Of a stretch of DNA of 64,000 bases, positions 36,327 to 45,477 are shown piece by piece; positions within the stretch are counted from its first letter, which is position 1, and each line of letters begins with the position of its first letter. The notes below the pieces were generated by a model, which was not told where the DNA came from, ran no database searches, and saw nothing but the letters and a program-made list of their open reading frames with translations. The stretch spans positions 1 through 64,000 of the forward strand of contig CASFVA010000036.1 of the NCBI GenBank assembly GCA_949298075.1, written 5' to 3'. Position numbers and translations under genes: made by a program. This DNA comes from an uncultured Lentisphaeria bacterium. Its GTDB lineage: Bacteria; Verrucomicrobiota; Lentisphaeria; Victivallales; Victivallaceae.

Positions 36327-36355
36327 TTGCATTTATCGGTTTTGTGTATTATAAT
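36327..36355 (+). promoter_or_regulatory. Strong sigma-70 promoter of the kinase/PqqD/secretion operon
   Basis: TTGCAT (36327-36332), a 17-bp spacer and a perfect TATAAT (36350-36355) lie 24 bp upstream of the TTG start at 36380. No other comparable promoter was noticed before the operon's terminator at 45447. Confidence 0.75.
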
Positions 36356-36379: not shown

Positions 36380-37279
36380 TTGGGTTTTGAGGCAACTGGT
36401 TTGAATCGGTTGGATCAGTCGGTCCCGGCAGGCGGCGAGCCGCGTTGGGTGACTATGCCGTTGCCGGATGGCAGTTTTTGCGCATGGCGTTCAAAAGGAA
36501 AAGACGCCGCGGCTGCCCTGGCCATGCTGAGTCATTGTACAGGTTTGCCGCTGAGTGACTTGGGATCGTCCTGCGGGAATGGGGTGGTGCTGCCGGTCGG
36601 CGGATCTGATGATCTGCGCCCCGGCGGTTTCGCCATTCGCCGCAATGGTTTGCGGGCATACGAGCTGGATAGCGGGAGATTTGAGGCATTAGTGATTCCG
36701 TGGGACGGGCGGACCATGGAATTGCGGGGCAGAATTGTCCGTCAGTTGTTTTTTCTGGGAGTACTGCCACGCCTGCTGGATGGCAGCTCATTTTTGGTTC
36801 ATGGCGCACTTGCGGTGCGGGGGGAGGAAGGATTTCTGTTCTGCGGTCCTTCCGGAATCGGTAAAAGTACGACGGTCTCACGCCTGAATCCGGACTTTCA
36901 GGTGCTGAGTGATGACTGTACTTTGCTGACAGAGTTGGAAGATGGCTTTTACGCGCAGCCGGTTCCGACCTGGAGTATCTGGACCAGCGGCAAGCCGGAA
37001 TGCGCGTTTAATTGCGCCAGGATTGCCAAAGTCAGCCGGTTTTGTCTTCTTGAGCGGGGAGAGCATGCGGTGTTCGGATTGGATAACATGGAGGCATTGC
37101 TTGGCGTGATGCCTTCTTTTACCGATATGATGAGATGGCATGTGGCCAGTTATCCGCCTGGAATTGTCCGCCGGCTGACTGAACGAAACATGGCGGCGGC
37201 GGAGCGGCTGGTTCGCCGGCTTCCCGGATGCCGCCTGCGGGTCAAACTGGATAAAACATTGGTTGGAGGTTTGTTATGA
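36380..37279 (+). CDS. HPr kinase-like (HprK-related) protein
   Basis: The 299-residue protein carries an HprK-type kinase core. LVHGALAVRGEE leads to a P-loop GPSGIGKST (156-164), followed by LSDDCTLL (Asp178-Asp179) at the expected metal/base position. The N-terminal half is unlike HPr kinase proper and is not recognised. HprK-related kinases occur next to PqqD-like proteins in several peptide-modification clusters, including lasso peptides whose precursor is phosphorylated on serine. The gene begins with TTG, the only plausible start after GGAG, which may limit expression. It overlaps the pqqD-like gene by 4 bp. Kinase activity and substrate are inferred. Confidence 0.75.
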   Translation: MGFEATGLNRLDQSVPAGGEPRWVTMPLPDGSFCAWRSKGKDAAAALAMLSHCTGLPLSDLGSSCGNGVVLPVGGSDDLRPGGFAIRRNGLRAYELDSGRFEALVIPWDGRTMELRGRIVRQLFFLGVLPRLLDGSSFLVHGALAVRGEEGFLFCGPSGIGKSTTVSRLNPDFQVLSDDCTLLTELEDGFYAQPVPTWSIWTSGKPECAFNCARIAKVSRFCLLERGEHAVFGLDNMEALLGVMPSFTDMMRWHVASYPPGIVRRLTERNMAAAERLVRRLPGCRLRVKLDKTLVGGLL

Positions 37280-37545
37280 TGCGAGTCAATCCGCTGATCG
37301 TCTGCCGTGAAGAGTTTGATGGCAGCGGCTGTTTGTTTAACCCCGATGACGGCAAAGTGTTCGGTGTCAACGCCACTGGTCTGGCCATCTGGCGGATTAT
37401 CGAAAACGGGGAGTGCGCCGACACGGCCGCGGTGCTGGAACAGCTGGCGGCACGCTGCGATGCACCGTTGCCGCCTGGAGCTGCGGATGAGGTCGAGGCA
37501 TTCGTGGGAGAACTCCGGACCAAGGGGTATATTTCGCTGGACTGA
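37276..37545 (+). CDS. PqqD-like peptide-binding (RRE) protein
   Basis: The 89-residue protein has the PqqD winged-helix pattern: FNPDDGKVFGVNATGLAIWR followed by a helix with LEQLAARC and a C-terminal EVEAFVGELRTKGYI. PqqD domains (RiPP recognition elements) bind the leader of a precursor peptide and hand it to modifying enzymes. It overlaps the HprK-like gene as ATGA and lies 6 bp before the ABC exporter, so binding, possible phosphorylation and export are encoded together. No cognate precursor peptide with a typical leader was recognised. Confidence 0.8.
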   Translation: MMRVNPLIVCREEFDGSGCLFNPDDGKVFGVNATGLAIWRIIENGECADTAAVLEQLAARCDAPLPPGAADEVEAFVGELRTKGYISLD

Positions 37546-37551
37546 GGCGTT

Positions 37552-39204
37552 ATGAATATCCTGCCGTTCGGCATGAGGCGCGCGTTGCGGCTGCTGTCTC
37601 CGGAATTTGCCCGGGAGCGATATTGCATAGCGGTCACGGTGGTTCTGGCGGTGTTATCATCGTCGGCTTTATGGTTGGTGCCATACTGCCAGCGATGGCT
37701 GGTTGATCGCCTGGCCGGCGGAGATTACTCCAGCGCGGTGTGGTGGCTGATCGGTTGCGGCGGACTGCTGCTGGCGATTGGCGGATGCGACACGTTAAGT
37801 GAATATCTGATTCGCGGAATCGGAACCCGGATCGGATTGTCTCTTAAGCGCCGGCTGCTCGGGGCGCTGATGGGACTGCCGGTGGATAGTATCAGTTCGC
37901 TGGGCAGCGGTTATCTTTCAGGACGGCTGCTCAATGATTTGGCCCTGGCTGGTTTTATTTATTCTGATGCTGCCATTGCCGGTTTGCGCAACGGTTTGAA
38001 ACTCGGCGGCGGCTGGGTGATGATAGCTGTTTTTGACTGGCGGGTGGCGGCGGTGTTGCTGCCGGTGCTGCCGGTGTATTGGTTGGCTTCACGTTTTTTT
38101 GGCCGGCGACAGTTTGCTCTGGCTTTGGATTACTGCGAATGCAATGCCAGAACCAATCGGTCGCTTTATGAATTCCTGCGCAACATTGTGCTGGTGAAAA
38201 GCCGGGCAGCCGAAACAGAATCGGATCAACGGTTCCGGTCCGGCCTGGAGGCGGTGGCGGGACTCCAGTATCGCCGGTTCCGGTTGGATGCTGGTTTCAG
38301 GCTGGTTTTGCTGATATTGCCAGGGGTGTGTTACTTCGCGGTTTTTCTGGTGGGAATAGCCATGATTGCACATGGGCGGTGGAGCCTGGGCGGTCTGTGG
38401 GCGCTGAATTGCTATTTGCATTATATATTTGTGCCGCTGCAGGGTTTGAGCCGGACTTCGGTGCGCTTGTCTCAGGCTTTTGCGGCGGCCGGACGGTTGA
38501 CGGACTTGATGGACCAGCTGCCGGAAAATTCTCCGGAAGGACTGCGGGTAGAACGATTGGCCGGAGCAGTCGAAGCCCGGAATTTGACTTTCGGCTATCC
38601 GGGAGCTCCGTTGCTGTTTGAAAATTTGAATTTTAAGATCGCTCCCGGGGAGCATGTGGCGATTGCCGGAGACAGCGGAACCGGCAAGAGTACTTTGGCG
38701 GCTCTGTTGCTTGCTCTGCGACGTCCGACCTCCGGAACCCTTAAGGTTGATGACGTGCCGGTGACGGAGTATGAATTGAGCTCGTATCGGCGGCGGATCG
38801 GATTTATCAGCCAGATCAGCGAGTTTTTCGCAGGCACTTTGCAGGAAAACCTGGCGTGTGGATTGGAGACTTCTCCGGGAGATGACGACATTGATCGGGC
38901 AATTGTCGCGGTCGGTCTGGCCGAACGGCTGCCGGAGGGCGGCAAGGCTCAGGTGATGGAAAACGGGACTAATTTCTCGGTTGGGGAACGTTTGCGACTG
39001 GCGCTGGCCCGGGAGTTGCTCCGGGAGGTGGACATTTTGATTCTGGATGAACCCACCGCTAACCTGGACGCCGTAGCCGCTGCTCGGACTCTGGATCTGA
39101 TTGAGCGTATTTTCGCCGGCAAAACGGTGCTGATGATTTCTCATCGGGAATCGACACTGGCCCGGTTTTCCCGGAAGATTGAACTGGGGTGTGACCGTCG
39201 ATGA
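37552..39204 (+). CDS. ABC transporter, fused membrane and ATPase domains
   Basis: The 550-residue half-transporter has an exporter-type membrane domain (about 20-310, several helices) and an ATPase domain with Walker A GDSGTGKST, a variant signature FSVGERLRLALARELL in place of LSGGQ, Walker B ILILDEPTANLD and the H-loop ISHRES. There is no N-terminal peptidase domain. ABC exporters of this shape (McjD/LanT-like without C39) export modified peptides. Context with PqqD and an S26-type peptidase favours a peptide substrate. The downstream gene overlaps by 4 bp. Confidence 0.85.
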   Translation: MNILPFGMRRALRLLSPEFARERYCIAVTVVLAVLSSSALWLVPYCQRWLVDRLAGGDYSSAVWWLIGCGGLLLAIGGCDTLSEYLIRGIGTRIGLSLKRRLLGALMGLPVDSISSLGSGYLSGRLLNDLALAGFIYSDAAIAGLRNGLKLGGGWVMIAVFDWRVAAVLLPVLPVYWLASRFFGRRQFALALDYCECNARTNRSLYEFLRNIVLVKSRAAETESDQRFRSGLEAVAGLQYRRFRLDAGFRLVLLILPGVCYFAVFLVGIAMIAHGRWSLGGLWALNCYLHYIFVPLQGLSRTSVRLSQAFAAAGRLTDLMDQLPENSPEGLRVERLAGAVEARNLTFGYPGAPLLFENLNFKIAPGEHVAIAGDSGTGKSTLAALLLALRRPTSGTLKVDDVPVTEYELSSYRRRIGFISQISEFFAGTLQENLACGLETSPGDDDIDRAIVAVGLAERLPEGGKAQVMENGTNFSVGERLRLALARELLREVDILILDEPTANLDAVAAARTLDLIERIFAGKTVLMISHRESTLARFSRKIELGCDRR

Positions 39205-39767
39205 GTTTTATATACCATGGTTCCAGCATGCTGAGGGTGTTTGCGCCGGGTGATGAGATCATTCTGGCGGAGGTGGATTTTGCCGCGTTGGAGGTCGGTG
39301 ATGTGGTGTGTTTCAGGAGCGCTTCCGGCGGGCTGGTCATTCATCGGGTCATCGGACGCGAGGCGGACCGGTTGTTTACCATGGGGGATAATAACACAAC
39401 TCCGGATCATGAACCGGTTAAAGCTGACCAGGAAGTCCGATTGGCTTTGGCGTTGATTCGCGGCGGCCGCAGATTTCCGGTGGCAGTCGGACGGGCCGGG
39501 GTACGGCAATTTTGTTGTAATCGCTTGCGGTACTGGTGCCGTCGCTGGCTGCGGCGTTTGCTTCTGCCGGCGGTGATGACGATCGGACGTTGCTTGGGGC
39601 GAAAAAGATTGGAGTGCGCCAGCTATGCTGATGGCTCGAAGTGCTACTTTGCCGGAAAAGTTCCGGTGGCGCGGCAAAACGCATCCGGCGAAGTGCATTA
39701 TATAAAATGGTATTACCGGTTTTTTTATCATGTTGATTCTGTCGGAACCAACCGGAGCCGGGACTGA
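39201..39767 (+). CDS. S26-type (ER/archaeal-like) signal peptidase homologue
   Basis: The first 80 residues match the S26B serine peptidases of archaea and the ER: GSSML with the candidate nucleophile Ser9, GDVVCFRS, LVIHRVIGRE with His48 replacing the bacterial lysine, and TMGDNNTTPD with Asp residues 63 and 69. The remaining 100 residues are basic and cysteine-containing and show no recognised domain. No membrane anchor is obvious at the N-terminus, though hydrophobic patches occur near 130. In context it could remove a leader from the exported peptide. Catalytic competence is inferred from motif spacing. Confidence 0.75.
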   Translation: MSFIYHGSSMLRVFAPGDEIILAEVDFAALEVGDVVCFRSASGGLVIHRVIGREADRLFTMGDNNTTPDHEPVKADQEVRLALALIRGGRRFPVAVGRAGVRQFCCNRLRYWCRRWLRRLLLPAVMTIGRCLGRKRLECASYADGSKCYFAGKVPVARQNASGEVHYIKWYYRFFYHVDSVGTNRSRD

Positions 39768-39774
39768 ATGACGA

Positions 39775-39999
39775 TTGAAAACGAAAAATTTAACAGTTTT
39801 ACACGGAGGCATTCTGAGCTATAAATTTCCGGGCGGCGTTGGTCTGCCGCATTCGACGGCCGGAGCGCTGACCGGCCGGCGCAATGCCATGATTGATTGC
39901 GGTTGGAACTCGGAAGATGATAAGGGAACCGGCGGTGCCGCGGATTCGGAATTTCCCGTCCGGATCCGACCGGCGGAACTGGCCGTCCGGCTGTTGTGA
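39775..39999 (+). CDS. Small unassigned ORF with non-ATG start, between peptidase and secretion genes
   Basis: An open frame of coding-like composition runs from TTG 39775 to 39999. A strong GGAGG at 39805-39809 stands just before ATT (39811) and CTG (39814) in the same frame, so a 62- or 63-residue product starting near SYKFPGGVGLPHSTAGALTG is more likely than the TTG form. There is no ATG until codon 39. A 17-codon ATG ORF (39768-39821) overlaps it in another frame and could be a leader coupling translation. Neither product is recognised. It is the best-placed candidate for a peptide substrate, but could also be non-coding. Confidence 0.35.
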   Translation: MKTKNLTVLHGGILSYKFPGGVGLPHSTAGALTGRRNAMIDCGWNSEDDKGTGGAADSEFPVRIRPAELAVRLL

Positions 40000-40046
40000 T
40001 TCATGGAATGAGTTTTGCATATACATTTATAGGGAAAGGAGAAGTA

Positions 40047-42596
40047 ATGTCATTGCCCAATGGTATATTGTGCCTGAAATACATCGCTTCGCAAATCCGC
40101 AGGCGTATCAACTTTGATGCGTTGATCACCAATGAGGTTTTGGCCAAATATGGAGCTGAAGCCGGCGCCGCGCTGCTGGAGATTTCCCAGGCGCTGGATT
40201 TGGCCCCGGAGTTGATGAACGACTATTCCGAGGCCGCGAAACTTTACCGCGGCGCCTCGCTGCTGAAACTGACCGGCGGCAACTGGGTGCTGGTGTTCCG
40301 TTTGGAACAGCTGGCTGGCAATTCGGCGGTGGCGATTTACGATCCAACGCAGCCCAAGGGGAGGGAGGCTCTCAATGTTTCGCTGGATCAGCTTAAATCG
40401 CGGGCGGAAGGACCGGTAATTGTCTTTCAGCAGCTGCAGGAAGTGGACACCCGCAAATACAGTTCGCTGTTTGGCTTGTCGTCAATTGCACGACACCATG
40501 GACTGAGATGCGATCTGCCCCAGCTCATCCACGATTACGCAGTCGGTGAAAATGAACCGACGCTGCGTGAACTTCAGGAAATGGCCTCGGATCTCGGACT
40601 CCGGAACCGTCTGGTGCGTCTGCAGTGGAAGGATTTAAAAAAGGCGGAAAAAGCCTTCCCCTGCATCGGTTTCAAGCGCGACGGTAAAAGTGCGGTGATC
40701 TGCGGAATGCGTGACAAGGACGGCATAACAGAAGTGGTGGTGTCCGATCCCGCATATTCGGCCGAACACCCCGGCGAGCAGTTCGCCTTTTACACGGAGG
40801 AGCAGTTCAATGAATTGTTCAACGGCGAAACCCTGATGCTCAAGCGGGTCTACAAGCTCAGTGACGAGGAGCAGCCGTTTGGATTGCTCTGGTTCATTCC
40901 GGAGTTTATCAAGCTGAAGGGCGTTTTCGGGCAGATTGCCCTCGCGGTGCTGCTGATTACGGTGGTGGCGCTGATTACTCCGCTCTTTTTCCAGATTGTG
41001 GTGGACAAGGTGCTGGTCAACGCCAGTTTCCGGACCTTGAACGTGCTGGGAATCGGCATTCTGGTAGCGATCCTGTTCAACGGCTTCATGGAATACCTGC
41101 GCGGCTATTTGCTGCTGTTCGCCACCAACAAGATAGATATTTCTACTGCGACCAAAACCTTCAGCCATCTCATGCGGCTGCCGATCAGCTTTTTTGAACG
41201 GGTGCCGTCGGGAGTTCTGCTCAAACACATGCAACAGACGGAGCGTATCCGTGGATTTCTTTCCGGCAACCTGTTTTTTACGGTTTTGGAATTGTTTTCC
41301 CTGGTGGTATTTCTGCCGTTTTTACTGCTGTACAGCCCGATTCTGACGGCAGTTGTCACCGGATTTTCCCTGATGATGGCCGTGGTCATCGCGCTGCTGA
41401 TCAAACCTTTTCAGCGTTGCCTGGACGAACTTTACCAGGCTGAAGGCAAACGTCAGAGCCGTCTGGTGGAATCAATTCACGGTATCCGCACAGTGAAATC
41501 GCTGGCTTTGGAGCCGGTTGAACGCAAAGCCTGGGACAATCGCACCGCCAGTGCCATCCGCGCCAGTTTCAGGGTGGGAAAAATCTCTTTGATTGCCCGC
41601 ACAATCAGTCATGGCCTTGAGATGCTGATGACCGTGGCGATCATTTGGATCGGAGCTTTGCTGGTATTCAGCGGCAAACTCAGCATCGGCGAATTGATCG
41701 CGTTTCAGATGCTTTCCGGACGGGTGACCGGACCGCTGGTTAAACTGGTCGGATTGATCCATGAATACCAGCAGGTCGCGTTGTCAGTGCGCATGCTTGG
41801 AGTAGTGATGAATTCCCCGGTCGAGAGCAACGGTGGCGGAGTCCGCCAGCCGCTCCGCGGTGCAATCACCATTGAAAACGTTTCGTTCCGTTATCGTCCG
41901 GATGCACCGGATGTTATCCGGCATTTCAATCTGGAGATCAGGCCGGGCAGCACTATTGGCATTGTCGGGCGTTCCGGATCGGGGAAATCCACGCTGACGA
42001 AACTGATCCAGGGACTCTATTCTGCGCAGAGCGGGCTGGTCAAGCTCGACGGCATCGACGTCAGGGAGTTGGATAAGTCGCATTTGCGCAGCAGCATCGG
42101 AGTGGTGTTGCAGGAAAACTTTTTCTTCAACGGCACTGTTCGCGAGAACATCAGTCTGACCCGTCCCAACGCCACGCTGGAGGAAATCATTTATGTTTCC
42201 AAGCTCGCTGGCGCTGACAGTTTCGTACAGAATCTGCAGCAGGGCTACGACACCATGCTTGATGAGAATGCCTCCAACCTTTCCGGCGGTCAGAAGCAGC
42301 GGCTGGCCATTGCCCGGGCGTTGCTGACCAACCCGTCGATCCTGATTTTTGACGAGGCGACCAGTGCGCTTGATCCGGAAAGTGAGACGATAATTCAAAA
42401 CAACCTTGGAGCCATTTCCCGCGGCCGGACGGTGCTGATTATTTCGCATCGTCTGAGCATGACGGTCGGCGCCGATAAGATCCTGGTGATGGATAATGGT
42501 GAACGGGTCGGTTTCGGCACCCACCGGGAGCTGTTGGCAATCGACGGCATTTACCGCGACTTCTGGCACCAGCAGATGGAAAGGAATCAGGGATGA
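40047..42596 (+). CDS. Type I secretion ABC transporter with two C39-like domains
   Basis: The 849-residue protein matches HlyB-type transporters. Residues about 137-268 form a C39-like domain in which the catalytic cysteine is absent (YSSLFGLSSIARHHGL), as in HlyB, where it binds the unfolded substrate. Residues about 50-130 (LYRGASLLKLTGGNWVLVFR, AIYDPTQ) look like the second half of another such domain. Then come the membrane domain (about 295-570) and ATPase with Walker A GRSGSGKST (about 641-649), LSGGQ (about 746) and ILIFDEATS. The ATG at 40047 follows GGAAAGGAG. Coupled by 4 bp to the HlyD-type gene. It should export a large protein or peptide in one step. Confidence 0.88.
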   Translation: MSLPNGILCLKYIASQIRRRINFDALITNEVLAKYGAEAGAALLEISQALDLAPELMNDYSEAAKLYRGASLLKLTGGNWVLVFRLEQLAGNSAVAIYDPTQPKGREALNVSLDQLKSRAEGPVIVFQQLQEVDTRKYSSLFGLSSIARHHGLRCDLPQLIHDYAVGENEPTLRELQEMASDLGLRNRLVRLQWKDLKKAEKAFPCIGFKRDGKSAVICGMRDKDGITEVVVSDPAYSAEHPGEQFAFYTEEQFNELFNGETLMLKRVYKLSDEEQPFGLLWFIPEFIKLKGVFGQIALAVLLITVVALITPLFFQIVVDKVLVNASFRTLNVLGIGILVAILFNGFMEYLRGYLLLFATNKIDISTATKTFSHLMRLPISFFERVPSGVLLKHMQQTERIRGFLSGNLFFTVLELFSLVVFLPFLLLYSPILTAVVTGFSLMMAVVIALLIKPFQRCLDELYQAEGKRQSRLVESIHGIRTVKSLALEPVERKAWDNRTASAIRASFRVGKISLIARTISHGLEMLMTVAIIWIGALLVFSGKLSIGELIAFQMLSGRVTGPLVKLVGLIHEYQQVALSVRMLGVVMNSPVESNGGGVRQPLRGAITIENVSFRYRPDAPDVIRHFNLEIRPGSTIGIVGRSGSGKSTLTKLIQGLYSAQSGLVKLDGIDVRELDKSHLRSSIGVVLQENFFFNGTVRENISLTRPNATLEEIIYVSKLAGADSFVQNLQQGYDTMLDENASNLSGGQKQRLAIARALLTNPSILIFDEATSALDPESETIIQNNLGAISRGRTVLIISHRLSMTVGADKILVMDNGERVGFGTHRELLAIDGIYRDFWHQQMERNQG

Positions 42597-43942
42597 GCAA
42601 GGAAAAACCGGCTTCTGCCGACCGCGCGGTGGAATTTTTCCCGGACGCGCTGGAGATTAAACACGAAGTTCTGCCCTGGTACGCCAGGCACGGTATTCTG
42701 CTGGGGCTGATCTTTTTCGCCGCAGCGCTGATCTGGGCCATAGTAGGCAAGGTGGATATTGTAATTGTCGGCCAGGGCAAGCTCATTGCCGATCATGATA
42801 TCGTGATGAAGCCTCTCCAGACATCGGTGATTAAGAGCATTGAGGTCAAAGTTGGCGATGTGGTCAAAAAAGATCAGGTGCTGATTACGTTTGATCCGGA
42901 GCTTTCCCAGGCTGACGCCGACCGTCTGGCCAGTGACATTGACACTTACACCGCGATGTATGAGCGTCTTCAGGCTGAATTCGAAGGCCGGGATTATGTG
43001 CCCAGCCGTGAAGCCAAAACCCCGACCGGAATTCGGGATCAGAAATGGCAGCTGGCCTCCTTCAAGCAGCGGCGCAGCTTTTACAATGAGAAAATCAATT
43101 ACTACGATCAGAGCTTGAAGCGGATTGACGCTTCGCTCAAATCGACCCGCGACAGTCTCGAAAAACAGAAAAACATTCTGAGTGCTATGTCGACCATTGA
43201 GGAAATGTACCGGGGATTGCAGGAGAAAAACGCGGTGTCGCTCCGGGAATTTCTAAGCATCCAGATCAACCGGATGTCCACAGAGGCGCAGGTTTCCAGT
43301 TTGGAGAATTCGCTGACTGAGCAGCACCATCAGAGATTGTCGATGGAGGCTGAAAAGAATTCTTTTGTGGAAGAGTGGCGCAACAGCATCGCGTCCGGAC
43401 TGGTTGAGGCTCAGCAGAATCTAACTTCCGCGCTAAAACAGTTTGCCAAAGCTGAACAGTATGTTTCCTATGTTCATCTCCGGGCGCCGTGCGATGCGGT
43501 GGTGCATGATATTGCCTCCTTTTCTCCAGGGTCGGCAGTGGGTGAAGCCGAAGCGGTGATCACTCTGGTTCCGCTGGACAGCCGGATTGAGATGCAGGCT
43601 GAAATCCGCCCGCAGGATATCGGCAAGCTGCGTCCCAACGCTGAAGTCAGGGTGAAACTTAGCGCTTTCCCGTTTCAGAAATACGGGACACTTGACGGTC
43701 GGGTGCGCCTGATCTCTGAAAATACTTTCACCCGTCCTTCCGGAAGCGATGGCTCACCCGGCGCCACTTATTACCGGGTCCGGATTGCACTTTCCGGTAA
43801 ATTGCACAATACTGAACCCGGATTCCGCCTGATCCCCGGCATGGAGGCCACTGCGGAAATCAAAACCGGTACGCGCCGGATTATCGACTACATCACCTAT
43901 CCGCTGGTGCGGGGGCTGGATGAGTCATTCAGGGAACCGTGA
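42593..43942 (+). CDS. HlyD-family type I secretion membrane fusion protein
   Basis: The 449-residue adaptor has a short cytoplasmic tail, one membrane helix (about 26-45, GILLGLIFFAAALIWAIVG), a lipoyl half-motif (VMKPLQTSVIKSIEVKVGDV with VKKDQVLI), a long coiled-coil region (about 90-285), the second lipoyl half (VHLRAPCDAVVHDIASF) and a beta-barrel (LGV-like) C-terminus ending in the family's RPLVRGLDESFREP-like tail. It bridges the ABC transporter to a TolC-type outer-membrane channel, which is not encoded in the window. It is coupled to the ABC gene by an ATGA overlap. Confidence 0.9.
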   Translation: MSKEKPASADRAVEFFPDALEIKHEVLPWYARHGILLGLIFFAAALIWAIVGKVDIVIVGQGKLIADHDIVMKPLQTSVIKSIEVKVGDVVKKDQVLITFDPELSQADADRLASDIDTYTAMYERLQAEFEGRDYVPSREAKTPTGIRDQKWQLASFKQRRSFYNEKINYYDQSLKRIDASLKSTRDSLEKQKNILSAMSTIEEMYRGLQEKNAVSLREFLSIQINRMSTEAQVSSLENSLTEQHHQRLSMEAEKNSFVEEWRNSIASGLVEAQQNLTSALKQFAKAEQYVSYVHLRAPCDAVVHDIASFSPGSAVGEAEAVITLVPLDSRIEMQAEIRPQDIGKLRPNAEVRVKLSAFPFQKYGTLDGRVRLISENTFTRPSGSDGSPGATYYRVRIALSGKLHNTEPGFRLIPGMEATAEIKTGTRRIIDYITYPLVRGLDESFREP

Positions 43943-44025
43943 AAATGAAAAAACGTCCGAATATTCCCTATCGCCGGGCATGTGCAGTTCCGAACAGATC
44001 ATCAGCTCATAAGGAGAAAAGCATA

Positions 44026-45429
44026 ATGGATATTACAATCAACAACAGCAATGCCGCGCCGGTTCAGGATATTTCGATTACGCCGGCGGCGTCCCCCGCG
44101 GCTCCGGCGTCCCCCGCGGCTCCGGCGTCCCCAGCGGCTGATTCTTCCAGTTCGTCGGCGCAGGGTTCGGCCCGGCCGAAACAGGCCTCAATTTACGGCG
44201 AGATTCCAACTGAGCCTGTGCTGGACGCAGTGGATGGTATCAAATTTGATTTCAACCACGGGATCCGGATTCTGATTCCGCGTAACGGCAAGAATTATCA
44301 CATTGTATTTTCCGACATTGACACCGGGATCATTCTGTACAGTGCCGACACGGTGCCGGGAGCCTACATCACCAGCGTCAAGAAGTTTTACATCCGGTTC
44401 CGGCTCGAAATATTTGAAAAAGGCAAGGAAAAGGCAATCTTTGTGCATGATTACGATGCCAAAGACAAAGAAGTCATGATCCAGCTGCCGGTGGGAACGA
44501 TCGGCGATTCGATCGGCTGGTTCAGTTATGTTGAGCGTTTTCAGCTCAAACATCAGTGCAAGGTTATCTGTGTGATGACTCCCTGGATCTCGATTCTGGT
44601 CAGGGATCAATATCCGGATATCACGTTTATCGGTCCGGAAGAGACGATGAAATACCGTCCTTATGCCAGTTATTATATGGGGCTGTTTTTCAAGGGCGAT
44701 GTCGACAACCAGCCGATTGATTTCCGGTATATCGGACTGCATCGGACGGCCGGTTATATTCTCGGAGTTGATCCTGCCGACATTCCGCCGCGGTTCAATC
44801 TCTCCGCGCCGAGGCGGATCAAGGAGAAATATGTGTGTATTGCCGCACAAAGCTCCAGTCAGGCCAAATACTGGAACAACCCCAACGGCTGGCGGGAGAT
44901 TGTCAAATTTCTGAAGAACAACGGCTACCGGGTATTGTGCATCGACAAGGAGCCGGTGCACGGGGATGGGTTGGTGTGGAACCACATACCATTCGGATGC
45001 GAGGACTTCACCGGGTCGCGTCCGTTGCAGGAGCGGGTGGATCTGGTCAAGGATGCCGACTTCTTCATCGGACTTTCCAGCGGTCTCTCCTGGTTGGCGT
45101 GGGGATGCAAGGTCCCGGTGGTGATGATTTCCGGTTTCACTCATCCCACCAATGAGTTTGCGACGCCGTACCGGGTGATTAACTATCATACCTGCCACAG
45201 CTGCTGGAATGACATGCGAGTGGATTTCGATCATTATGATTTCCTGTGGTGCCCGCGCCAGAAAGGTACCTCGCGTCAGTTTGAGTGCAGTCGGCTGATT
45301 TCGGCTGACCAGGTGATTACAACCATCAAGAAAGTTCCGACTTTCCGGCCCGGCAAGCCGCTGCCGGAGTTGTTCCCGGACAACGCTGAAACCATTTTCG
45401 GACCGGTTGACAAAAAGTCGGGCAAATGA
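44026..45429 (+). CDS. TibC/Aah-like protein O-heptosyltransferase (BAHT family)
   Basis: The 467-residue protein fits the bacterial autotransporter heptosyltransferases, which transfer heptose from ADP-heptose to serines of adhesins in the cytoplasm. Visible features are an N-terminal beta domain (FDFNHGIRILIPRNGKNYHI), a GT-B core with IGLSSGLSWLAWGCKVPVVM, and the four-cysteine metal finger C390, C393, C409, C421 (THSCW-like TCHSCWND, WCPR, FECSR), matching the Fe(III) finger of TibC. The ATG at 44026 follows AAGGAG. An upstream GTG at 43939 is possible. A low-complexity Ala-Pro-Ser segment (about 20-45) precedes the enzyme. It is the last operon gene, downstream of a type I secretion pair. 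The target is unknown. Confidence 0.85.
   Translation: MDITINNSNAAPVQDISITPAASPAAPASPAAPASPAADSSSSSAQGSARPKQASIYGEIPTEPVLDAVDGIKFDFNHGIRILIPRNGKNYHIVFSDIDTGIILYSADTVPGAYITSVKKFYIRFRLEIFEKGKEKAIFVHDYDAKDKEVMIQLPVGTIGDSIGWFSYVERFQLKHQCKVICVMTPWISILVRDQYPDITFIGPEETMKYRPYASYYMGLFFKGDVDNQPIDFRYIGLHRTAGYILGVDPADIPPRFNLSAPRRIKEKYVCIAAQSSSQAKYWNNPNGWREIVKFLKNNGYRVLCIDKEPVHGDGLVWNHIPFGCEDFTGSRPLQERVDLVKDADFFIGLSSGLSWLAWGCKVPVVMISGFTHPTNEFATPYRVINYHTCHSCWNDMRVDFDHYDFLWCPRQKGTSRQFECSRLISADQVITTIKKVPTFRPGKPLPELFPDNAETIFGPVDKKSGK
44085..44136 (+). repeat. 18-bp tandem repeat coding for an Ala-Pro-Ser linker
   Basis: About three copies of an 18-base unit (GCTCCGGCGTCCCCCGCG, copies at 44101 and 44119 and a partial at 44085) encode repeated SPAAPA in the N-terminus of the heptosyltransferase-like protein. 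Copy-number change would stay in frame. Confidence 0.8.
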
Positions 45430-45446
45430 GTCGGCGTCTGCCTGCG

Positions 45447-45477
45447 GTCCGGGGGATGACAGATCCCCCGGACTTTT
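45447..45477 (+). terminator. Strong intrinsic terminator ending the secretion operon
   Basis: A perfect 11-bp stem (45447-45457 and 45463-45473) with loop GACAG is followed by TTTT. The minus strand lacks a T-run after it, so it mainly ends the rightward operon. Confidence 0.9.

Follow-up and report, generated by a model that had tools for sequence, protein, structure and literature searches.

What joins a peptide-maturation cassette to a protein secretion pair with its own glycosyltransferase in one operon? The question is raised by seven co-directional genes at 36380-45429 on the + strand of a 64,000-nt stretch of DNA (the window) from an uncultured Lentisphaeria bacterium of the Victivallaceae (assembly GCA_949298075.1, contig CASFVA010000036.1). 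The first four genes encode an HprK/ScmC-like kinase (KIN), a PqqD-family recognition element (RRE) for ribosomally synthesised and post-translationally modified peptides (RiPPs), an MsbA-like exporter (ABC1) and an S26 signal-peptidase-like protease (S26). The remaining three encode an HlyB-type exporter (ABC2), an HlyD membrane-fusion protein and a TibC/Aah-type O-heptosyltransferase (HEP). An earlier reading of the window (the sequence-only reading) had placed the same seven families here, describing a modified-peptide logic followed by a type I secretion pair with a TibC-like heptosyltransferase, and our profile searches bear this out. It also proposed that a single substrate is bound, phosphorylated, heptosylated and exported. 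Comparative evidence points instead to two substrate classes, small peptides with a YxxP leader for KIN, PqqD, S26 and ABC1, and giant strand-loop-strand proteins for HlyB, HlyD and HEP; heptosylation of a peptide found no support. We think it probable that the operon provides one common station where these two secreted product classes, encoded elsewhere in the genome and coupled at the cell surface, are processed and exported.

The genome comprises 2.33 Mb in 75 contigs and is 87% complete; the window is part of contig C36. Handles beginning with G, C and L denote genomes, contigs and loci. The sequence-only reading advised looking in relatives for the same gene order, for conserved small open reading frames (ORFs) and for RTX or strand-loop-strand proteins nearby.

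Results

Small YxxP ORFs lie between giant genes and the kinase gene

We scanned for precursors, that is, RiPP-like ORFs whose leader carries the RRE-binding motif Y-x-x-P. The scan revealed a series of short YxxP ORFs adjoining the KIN genes of relatives, and the arrangement giant gene, YxxP ORF, KIN was first met in six genomes. For a prospective sample, 137 genomes of the order were searched for KIN, which 45 of them have, and 20 further loci were taken, one of which (L380) was L230 again. In ten of these loci KIN follows directly on a giant gene, and a YxxP ORF occupies eight of the ten gaps, against 0.06 expected. Across Victivallales the count is 14 of 16 giant-KIN gaps, against 0.11. 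Requiring a Shine-Dalgarno sequence leaves 6/10 and 11/16 (0.01 and 0.02 expected). The expectation derives from how densely YxxP ORFs occur over 5.5 Mb of strand sequence, a background that takes in coding sequence as well as the hits. The enrichment is about hundredfold, an estimate, as related genomes contribute gaps that are not wholly independent of one another.

All 22 precursors harbor a hydrophobic-x-[Gly/Ala] site 15-18 residues past the leader Tyr, whereas shuffled tails gave a mean of 7.1 and a maximum of 16/22 in 2000 trials; the site definition was picked after viewing the sequences, and the statistics are therefore descriptive. Ser or Thr occurs within the next four residues after the putative site in 17 of the 22. 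The pattern extends to the cultured Victivallis vadensis DSM 14823, in which giant gene, precursor, KIN, PqqD, ABC1 and S26 are consecutive (L348 1-8642), the last four in the order of the window. The predicted core of the precursor is ADSSGTGGEGGQP. A second V. vadensis precursor lies behind another giant gene (L349 9491-9598). The leaders of closely related copies vary mostly by silent changes: the V. vadensis pair shows 7 silent and 4 coding differences, all coding ones in the core, and the pair G052/SI.B33 shows 4 silent and no coding differences. At a separate locus, four tandem near-identical YxxP precursor-like ORFs stand directly upstream of KIN and PqqD (L397 1240-1928).

Kinase, PqqD and S26 might instead act directly on the giants, the small YxxP ORFs being adaptors or untranslated. 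KIN does adjoin giant genes in many loci, and the giant-KIN gaps of L383 and L390 hold no YxxP ORF. However, no YxxP-like leader was seen at the N-termini of the window genome's own giants, silent changes prevail in precursor leaders, and the same enzyme set works on small YxxP peptides in the pathway of linear polyphosphorylated peptides (LPPs; PMC13381572). We consider direct action on the giants very unlikely.

The first half of the operon is LPP-like

In KIN, H141, GKST161-164 and DD178-179 are invariant across 16 homologues, which keep the HprK-type His-Gly, GxSGxGKST and Asp-Asp motifs save for looser P-loop Gly and Ser positions. A structural model of KIN (pLDDT 82) matches PEPCK-type P-loop kinases in a fold search (E 8.5e-8); HprK and PEPCK have a common fold. 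Pfam Hpr_kinase_C matches weakly, and only in relatives. In S26, Ser9, His48, Asp63 and Asp69 are invariant in 8 homologues.

Popov et al. described LPPs from the Paenibacillus alginolyticus lpp cluster (Nat Commun, May 2026; PMC13381572) and state that they are confined to Bacillota, their biological role being unknown. There, LppK phosphorylates Ser3 of the core and LppS, with help of LppB, cleaves 15 residues past the leader Tyr. The window shares four of the five LPP enzymes: a SipW-like S26 whose Ser-His spacing of 39 equals that of LppS (S29-H68), a discrete RRE in the form of the stand-alone PqqD, an HprK-like kinase by motifs and fold, and an MsbA-like exporter, though the match of ABC1 is below cut-off. 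Neither system has a cyclase in its cluster. YxxP-leader precursors span 35-200 aa in LPP and 29-50 aa here, and the spacing from Tyr to cleavage is ~15 residues in LPP and 15-18 as proposed here.

The fifth enzyme, an NTP transferase, is absent from the window operon; it is present in L383, L388 and L395 and as a fusion in L085, and L383 carries all five LPP enzymes downstream of a giant gene. Of the LPP leader consensus YxxPxVLxHQxIxFETxxS only the YxxP part is present, in all precursors here. The host belongs to Lentisphaerota rather than Bacillota, and the window's precursors are encoded in trans, beside a radical S-adenosylmethionine (SAM) gene. The LPP genes of Bacilli frequently neighbour capsule loci, without giant proteins (PMC13381572), whereas the neighbours here are giant secreted proteins, a type I exporter and a heptosyltransferase. 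Because the leader consensus is incomplete and the window has no NTP transferase, its sequence features mark the first half as LPP-like rather than as an LPP member.

Two gene fusions were observed among these enzymes. S26 and KIN share a single ORF at L079 6348-7961 (-), and S26 is fused to the nucleotidyltransferase domain PF14907 at L085 1661-3319, with the same architecture at L081 7271-8929 (-).

NHLP/Nif11 RiPP clusters, reported also in V. vadensis, likewise tie RiPP maturation to an HlyD-containing exporter, but they have other precursors and a peptidase-bearing exporter, and a set of kinase, PqqD, S26 and heptosyltransferase is not described there (PMC2887384). Neither a macrolactam cyclase nor a cysteine leader peptidase B2, as in a lasso peptide cluster, is among the operon genes (the rest of the genome was not searched). 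Our literature search, conducted mostly without subscription papers, returned no further paper on LPPs and none joining strand-loop-strand proteins with Lentisphaerota.

Candidate precursors are encoded beside a radical SAM gene

The sequence-only reading found no substrate gene here. This is true of the operon itself, but candidate substrates do exist elsewhere in the genome, in trans. Two tandem paralogues on contig C58, 45-48 aa long and with YxxP leaders, are P1 (MEDARKITYGKPELIDYAFYGEVVAGASSHEPGGAVDTTCPVSGLDEA) and P2 (MKKIAYQTPVIFEYTYFGTVVSGLTSDPSGPGEGGDTGCVVGIDG). They lie upstream of, and co-directional with, a radical SAM gene matching ScmE at 8e-63. A conserved Cys is common to both; several other precursors have none. 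As the window PqqD is the only PqqD detected in the genome, it would be their natural partner. A model of P1 and P2 matched, at E<0.01 among 60 relatives, only in UBA1784 (G030; two copies) and G007 (two adjacent copies on inspection), the very genomes that have KIN and HEP at one locus. Among the longer exporter matches, those most similar to the window's exporter (79% and 70% identity) likewise belong to these two, and this co-occurrence is therefore not independent of descent. Among the named genomes with linked halves, the precursor search gave matches only in UBA1784, plus weak V. vadensis matches that were upheld on inspection.

These features raise the possibility that a reduced SynChlorMet-type pathway (NCBIfam TIGR04248-04251) makes up the first half; its main chemistry would be performed by the radical SAM enzyme on the conserved Cys region of P1/P2, the kinase-like protein having another role. 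The best matches of KIN and PqqD are indeed ScmC and ScmD, the genome's own radical SAM protein matches ScmE, P1 and P2 share their Cys, and some related loci read ABC2-HlyD-PqqD-S26-radical SAM-KIN. Yet both scores are under the SynChlorMet cut-offs (Table 1), profile searches show no radical SAM gene in the operon, and a type I secretion pair and HEP are added. Furthermore, most giant-precursor-KIN loci examined have no adjoining radical SAM gene, the KIN motifs are invariant and several precursors lack Cys. We regard the SynChlorMet reading as unlikely.

To our knowledge, the SynChlorMet precursor is listed as unidentified in NCBIfam. As a separate observation, we found candidate SynChlorMet precursors of 69-81 aa with YxxP leaders and Cys-rich, repeat-like cores. 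Those at L083 8341-8580 and 8708-8953 (-) adjoin a gene above the ScmC cut-off, and the one at L082 2073-2282 (-) adjoins a gene above the ScmE cut-off.

The second half appears to serve giant strand-loop-strand proteins

HlyD scores above its family cut-off and ABC2 below that of HlyB (Table 1). The C39-like domain of ABC2 has no Cys at the active-site position; the HlyB domain likewise lacks it. HEP matches the TibC structure 4rb4 (E 4e-141) and keeps the catalytic Asp110, the sugar-binding Lys, Arg and Trp and the four iron-finger Cys named for TibC (PMC4358343), with Ser at Thr226. By fold, profile score and residues, HEP is assigned to the BAHT heptosyltransferases.

HEP genes of relatives are often directly followed by a gene for a giant repeat protein, and HEP, type I secretion pair and giant stand together in L250 and L257. 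Of 60 genomes searched, 25 have strand-loop-strand repeats (TIGR04415); the window genome has 34 matches (E up to 0.01) on nine contigs. Its giants show no clear signal-peptide-like N-terminus in a crude hydropathy check. Those fetched on C18, C64, C52, C28, C24, C70 and C19 (L200-L203, L205-L207) run into contig ends that are near-identical to one another, probably a sign that the assembly collapses the shared 3' parts of these genes. The recovered C-termini end in LKFAKLA (C20 and C62), KFASTLA (C6) and LKFGILA (C21), and share a ~110-aa module with two giants of UBA1784. More broadly, 25 of 45 repeat-rich proteins with complete ends finish in LA or IA. RTX repeats occur in the giants of some relatives, and no autotransporter barrel was seen in any giant checked. 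Together these features suggest that the giants are heptosylated and leave the cell by type I secretion.

The C-terminal module was modelled as almost entirely beta (pLDDT 86); a fold search with this model gave no significant match, the best weak ones being beta-helical passenger domains. We tried the module as a mark of KIN genomes and rejected it: its hidden Markov model matched only proteins of G000 and G030, and nothing but the ...LA end is common to the other giants adjoining KIN.

HEP could in principle serve ordinary autotransporters (type V secretion), its place behind a type I exporter being accidental. The family name and the characterised members, TibC/Aah with TibA/AIDA-I, belong to autotransporter enzymes (PMC4358343); enzyme family and catalytic and iron-finger residues are alike here, and strand-loop-strand substrates are present in the genome. 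The substrates here, however, appear to be type I secreted, those checked having neither a signal-peptide-like N-terminus nor an autotransporter barrel; some carry RTX repeats, and clusters of HEP, giant and type I pair, or of HEP and type I pair, recur in Victivallales and Desulfovibrionaceae. We find the autotransporter explanation extremely improbable. In Mailhella sp. of the Desulfovibrionaceae, HEP is directly followed by HlyB and HlyD (L277 3895-9404); as this is another phylum, the association of BAHT enzymes with type I secretion reaches beyond Lentisphaerota.

Three further observations concern related proteins. A second TIGR04414 heptosyltransferase (C13:60587-61711 (-)) is 50% identical to HEP and adjoins none of the operon families. 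About 36 kb downstream of the operon, contig C36 encodes at ~81787-86853 (L319 1788-6854) a protein of 1,680 aa that has Chlamydia PMP repeats as well as a giant-like stretch. Downstream of stand-alone ABC2-HlyD pairs, L187, L188 and L189 encode large proteins starting MKELEIFKLEDRVLFEAAAAAE, with an N-terminal LEDRVLF motif.

The two halves are linked recurrently

The seven genes occur in identical order in UBA1784, a member of the same genus. In G007, HEP, a radical SAM gene and KIN are consecutive. In Victivallaceae STF1_78 (L214), the edge of a contig carries PqqD-ABC1-S26-ABC2-HlyD. The order ABC2-HlyD-PqqD-S26-radical SAM-KIN mentioned above is that of L228, L236, L244 and L078, whereas L230 and L231 have KIN-PqqD-S26 (with a nucleotidyltransferase)-ABC2-HlyD, and L261 and L267 hold further variants. 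Of 80 named loci, 9 have PqqD and S26 within the fetched stretch (<=10 kb per side). In a tree built from 82 exporters, linkage of the type I pair to PqqD/S26 takes 4 changes, at least 3 of them forced by well-supported branches, versus 10.5 with shuffled labels. Linkage is thus recurrent yet clustered on the exporter tree, gains and losses being indistinguishable. The sequence-only reading was to fall if relatives carried the halves without linkage; linkage arose repeatedly, and the junction of the halves is therefore no accident.

Several observations weigh against a single station. The precursors lie outside the operon, and a search of the STF1_78 genome for a precursor found none. Likeness to the LPP enzymes is by motif and architecture, in a window without the NTP transferase. 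The 279-nt gap between S26 and ABC2 could contain a second promoter. Finally, the type I pair is nearly universal in the genus, mostly without the peptide set, and giants are present in genomes without KIN; neither half therefore requires the other, and the peptide set is an accessory to the type I pair.

Accordingly, one may ask whether the operon merely co-regulates two independent surface systems, the peptide being a free-standing RiPP (signal or antimicrobial) that plays no physical part for the giants. Each half is found without the other, ABC1 supplies the peptide with its own exporter, and the LPP genes of Bacilli manage near capsule loci with no giants (PMC13381572). On the other hand, it is the peptide ORF itself, beyond the enzymes, that separates a giant gene from KIN in no fewer than 14 loci, and the type I linkage is recurrent. 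We judge independence somewhat unlikely and favour the shared station, although it is from gene neighbourhood that a common purpose of the halves is, most conjecturally, suggested.

Architecture of the operon

The features are collected in Table 1. Four ATGA overlaps had been claimed; those at 37276 (KIN/PqqD), 39201 (ABC1/S26) and 42593 (ABC2/HlyD) are present, while 43939 is GTGA and usable only with an unlikely GTG start of HEP. PqqD and ABC1 are separated by 6 nt. For HEP the most likely start is ATG 44027, preceded by AAGGAGAAAAGCATA and in agreement with the start of its relatives. ABC2 most likely starts at ATG 40047, behind AAAGGAG, rather than at GTG 39996. A single strong promoter had also been proposed. 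A good -10 element is indeed present at 36350, but with its poor -35 element the site falls below the + strand scan threshold, and the scan reported a weak promoter-like match at 39798-39827, so the second half could be expressed separately. The strong terminator stands.

The small ORF counted as a further operon member (39775-39999) is probably not a gene, as family searches gave no match and L051 has only a short S26-ABC2 gap. It was also ruled out as a precursor, having no fitting YxxP leader, no family and no space in L051. Small-ORF scans found no conserved small ORF within or adjoining the operon, and the best matches of an all-against-all BLAST of small ORFs for precursors resembled shadows of larger genes. 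No TolC-type outer membrane protein is encoded in the operon (no genome-wide search was made).

Table 1. Features of the operon and its surroundings in the window.
Feature	Position	Strand	Details
Possible promoter: TTGCAT, 17 nt, TATAAT	36327..36355	+	Read from sequence; good -10, -35 only 3/6; not reported by promoter scan
KIN: HprK/ScmC-like P-loop kinase	36380..37279	+	TTG start behind GGAG; TIGR04249 ScmC E 1e-13, 51 bits (cut-off 125)
PqqD-family RRE	37276..37545	+	PF05402 E 1.3e-12; TIGR04248 ScmD 3.6e-16, 59 bits (cut-off 100); stand-alone, 89 aa
ABC1: MsbA-like exporter, permease-ATPase, without peptidase domain	37552..39204	+	PF00664, PF00005; best NCBIfam match TIGR02203 MsbA 1.2e-68, below cut-off
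S26: archaeal/SipW-type signal-peptidase-like protease, putative leader peptidase	39201..39767	+	TIGR02228 2.3e-13, just below cut-off
S26-ABC2 gap, 279 nt, sole long gap of the operon	39768..40046		Holds unsupported small ORF 39775-39999 and weak promoter-like match
ABC2: HlyB-type type I exporter, degenerate C39-like domain	40047..42596	+	TIGR01846 HlyB 4.5e-196, 653 bits (cut-off 726)
HlyD membrane-fusion protein	42593..43942	+	TIGR01843 289 bits (cut-off 209)
HEP: TibC/Aah-type O-heptosyltransferase (BAHT)	44027..45429	+	TIGR04414 581 bits (cut-off 200)
Intrinsic terminator-like hairpin	45446..45474	+	12 pairs, 8 G-C, loop 5, T-rich tail

Discussion

How might such a station work? By analogy with the LPP and TibC enzymes, PqqD would grip the YxxP leader of the 45-48-aa P1 and P2, KIN would phosphorylate Ser or Thr near the core start, and S26 would cut the leader at the hydrophobic-x-[G/A] site 15-18 residues past the Tyr. 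HEP would O-heptosylate the cytosolic giants, which have no signal peptides, and HlyB and HlyD, with a TolC from outside the operon, would secrete them via a C-terminal signal ending in ...LA. More speculatively, ABC1 might export the core peptide, the ScmE-like radical SAM enzyme beside P1/P2 may add another modification, and joint action of peptide and giant at the cell surface may be the reason why the halves are coupled.

We tentatively extend this to the following proposal. An LPP-like phosphopeptide, encoded with a type-I-secreted giant that has no signal peptide and matured by kinase, RRE and S26, would partner the giant as cap, anchor, ligand or folding aid. In the window's lineage the maturation set would have become fused with a heptosylating type I station. 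Such an arrangement would be an undescribed class of giant adhesin system. The sequence-only reading knew of no description joining the two halves. The linkage it proposed holds, and the first half on its own is already described (LPP RiPPs, 2026).

LPP-like cassettes with predicted precursors are thus found through an order of Lentisphaerota, beyond Bacillota, and consistently beside genes for giant secreted proteins. Candidate precursors are supplied for SynChlorMet cassettes, and BAHT heptosyltransferases are pointed to as serving type I secretion substrates rather than autotransporters. The role of LPP-like peptides becomes a testable question in a cultured organism, Victivallis vadensis DSM 14823.

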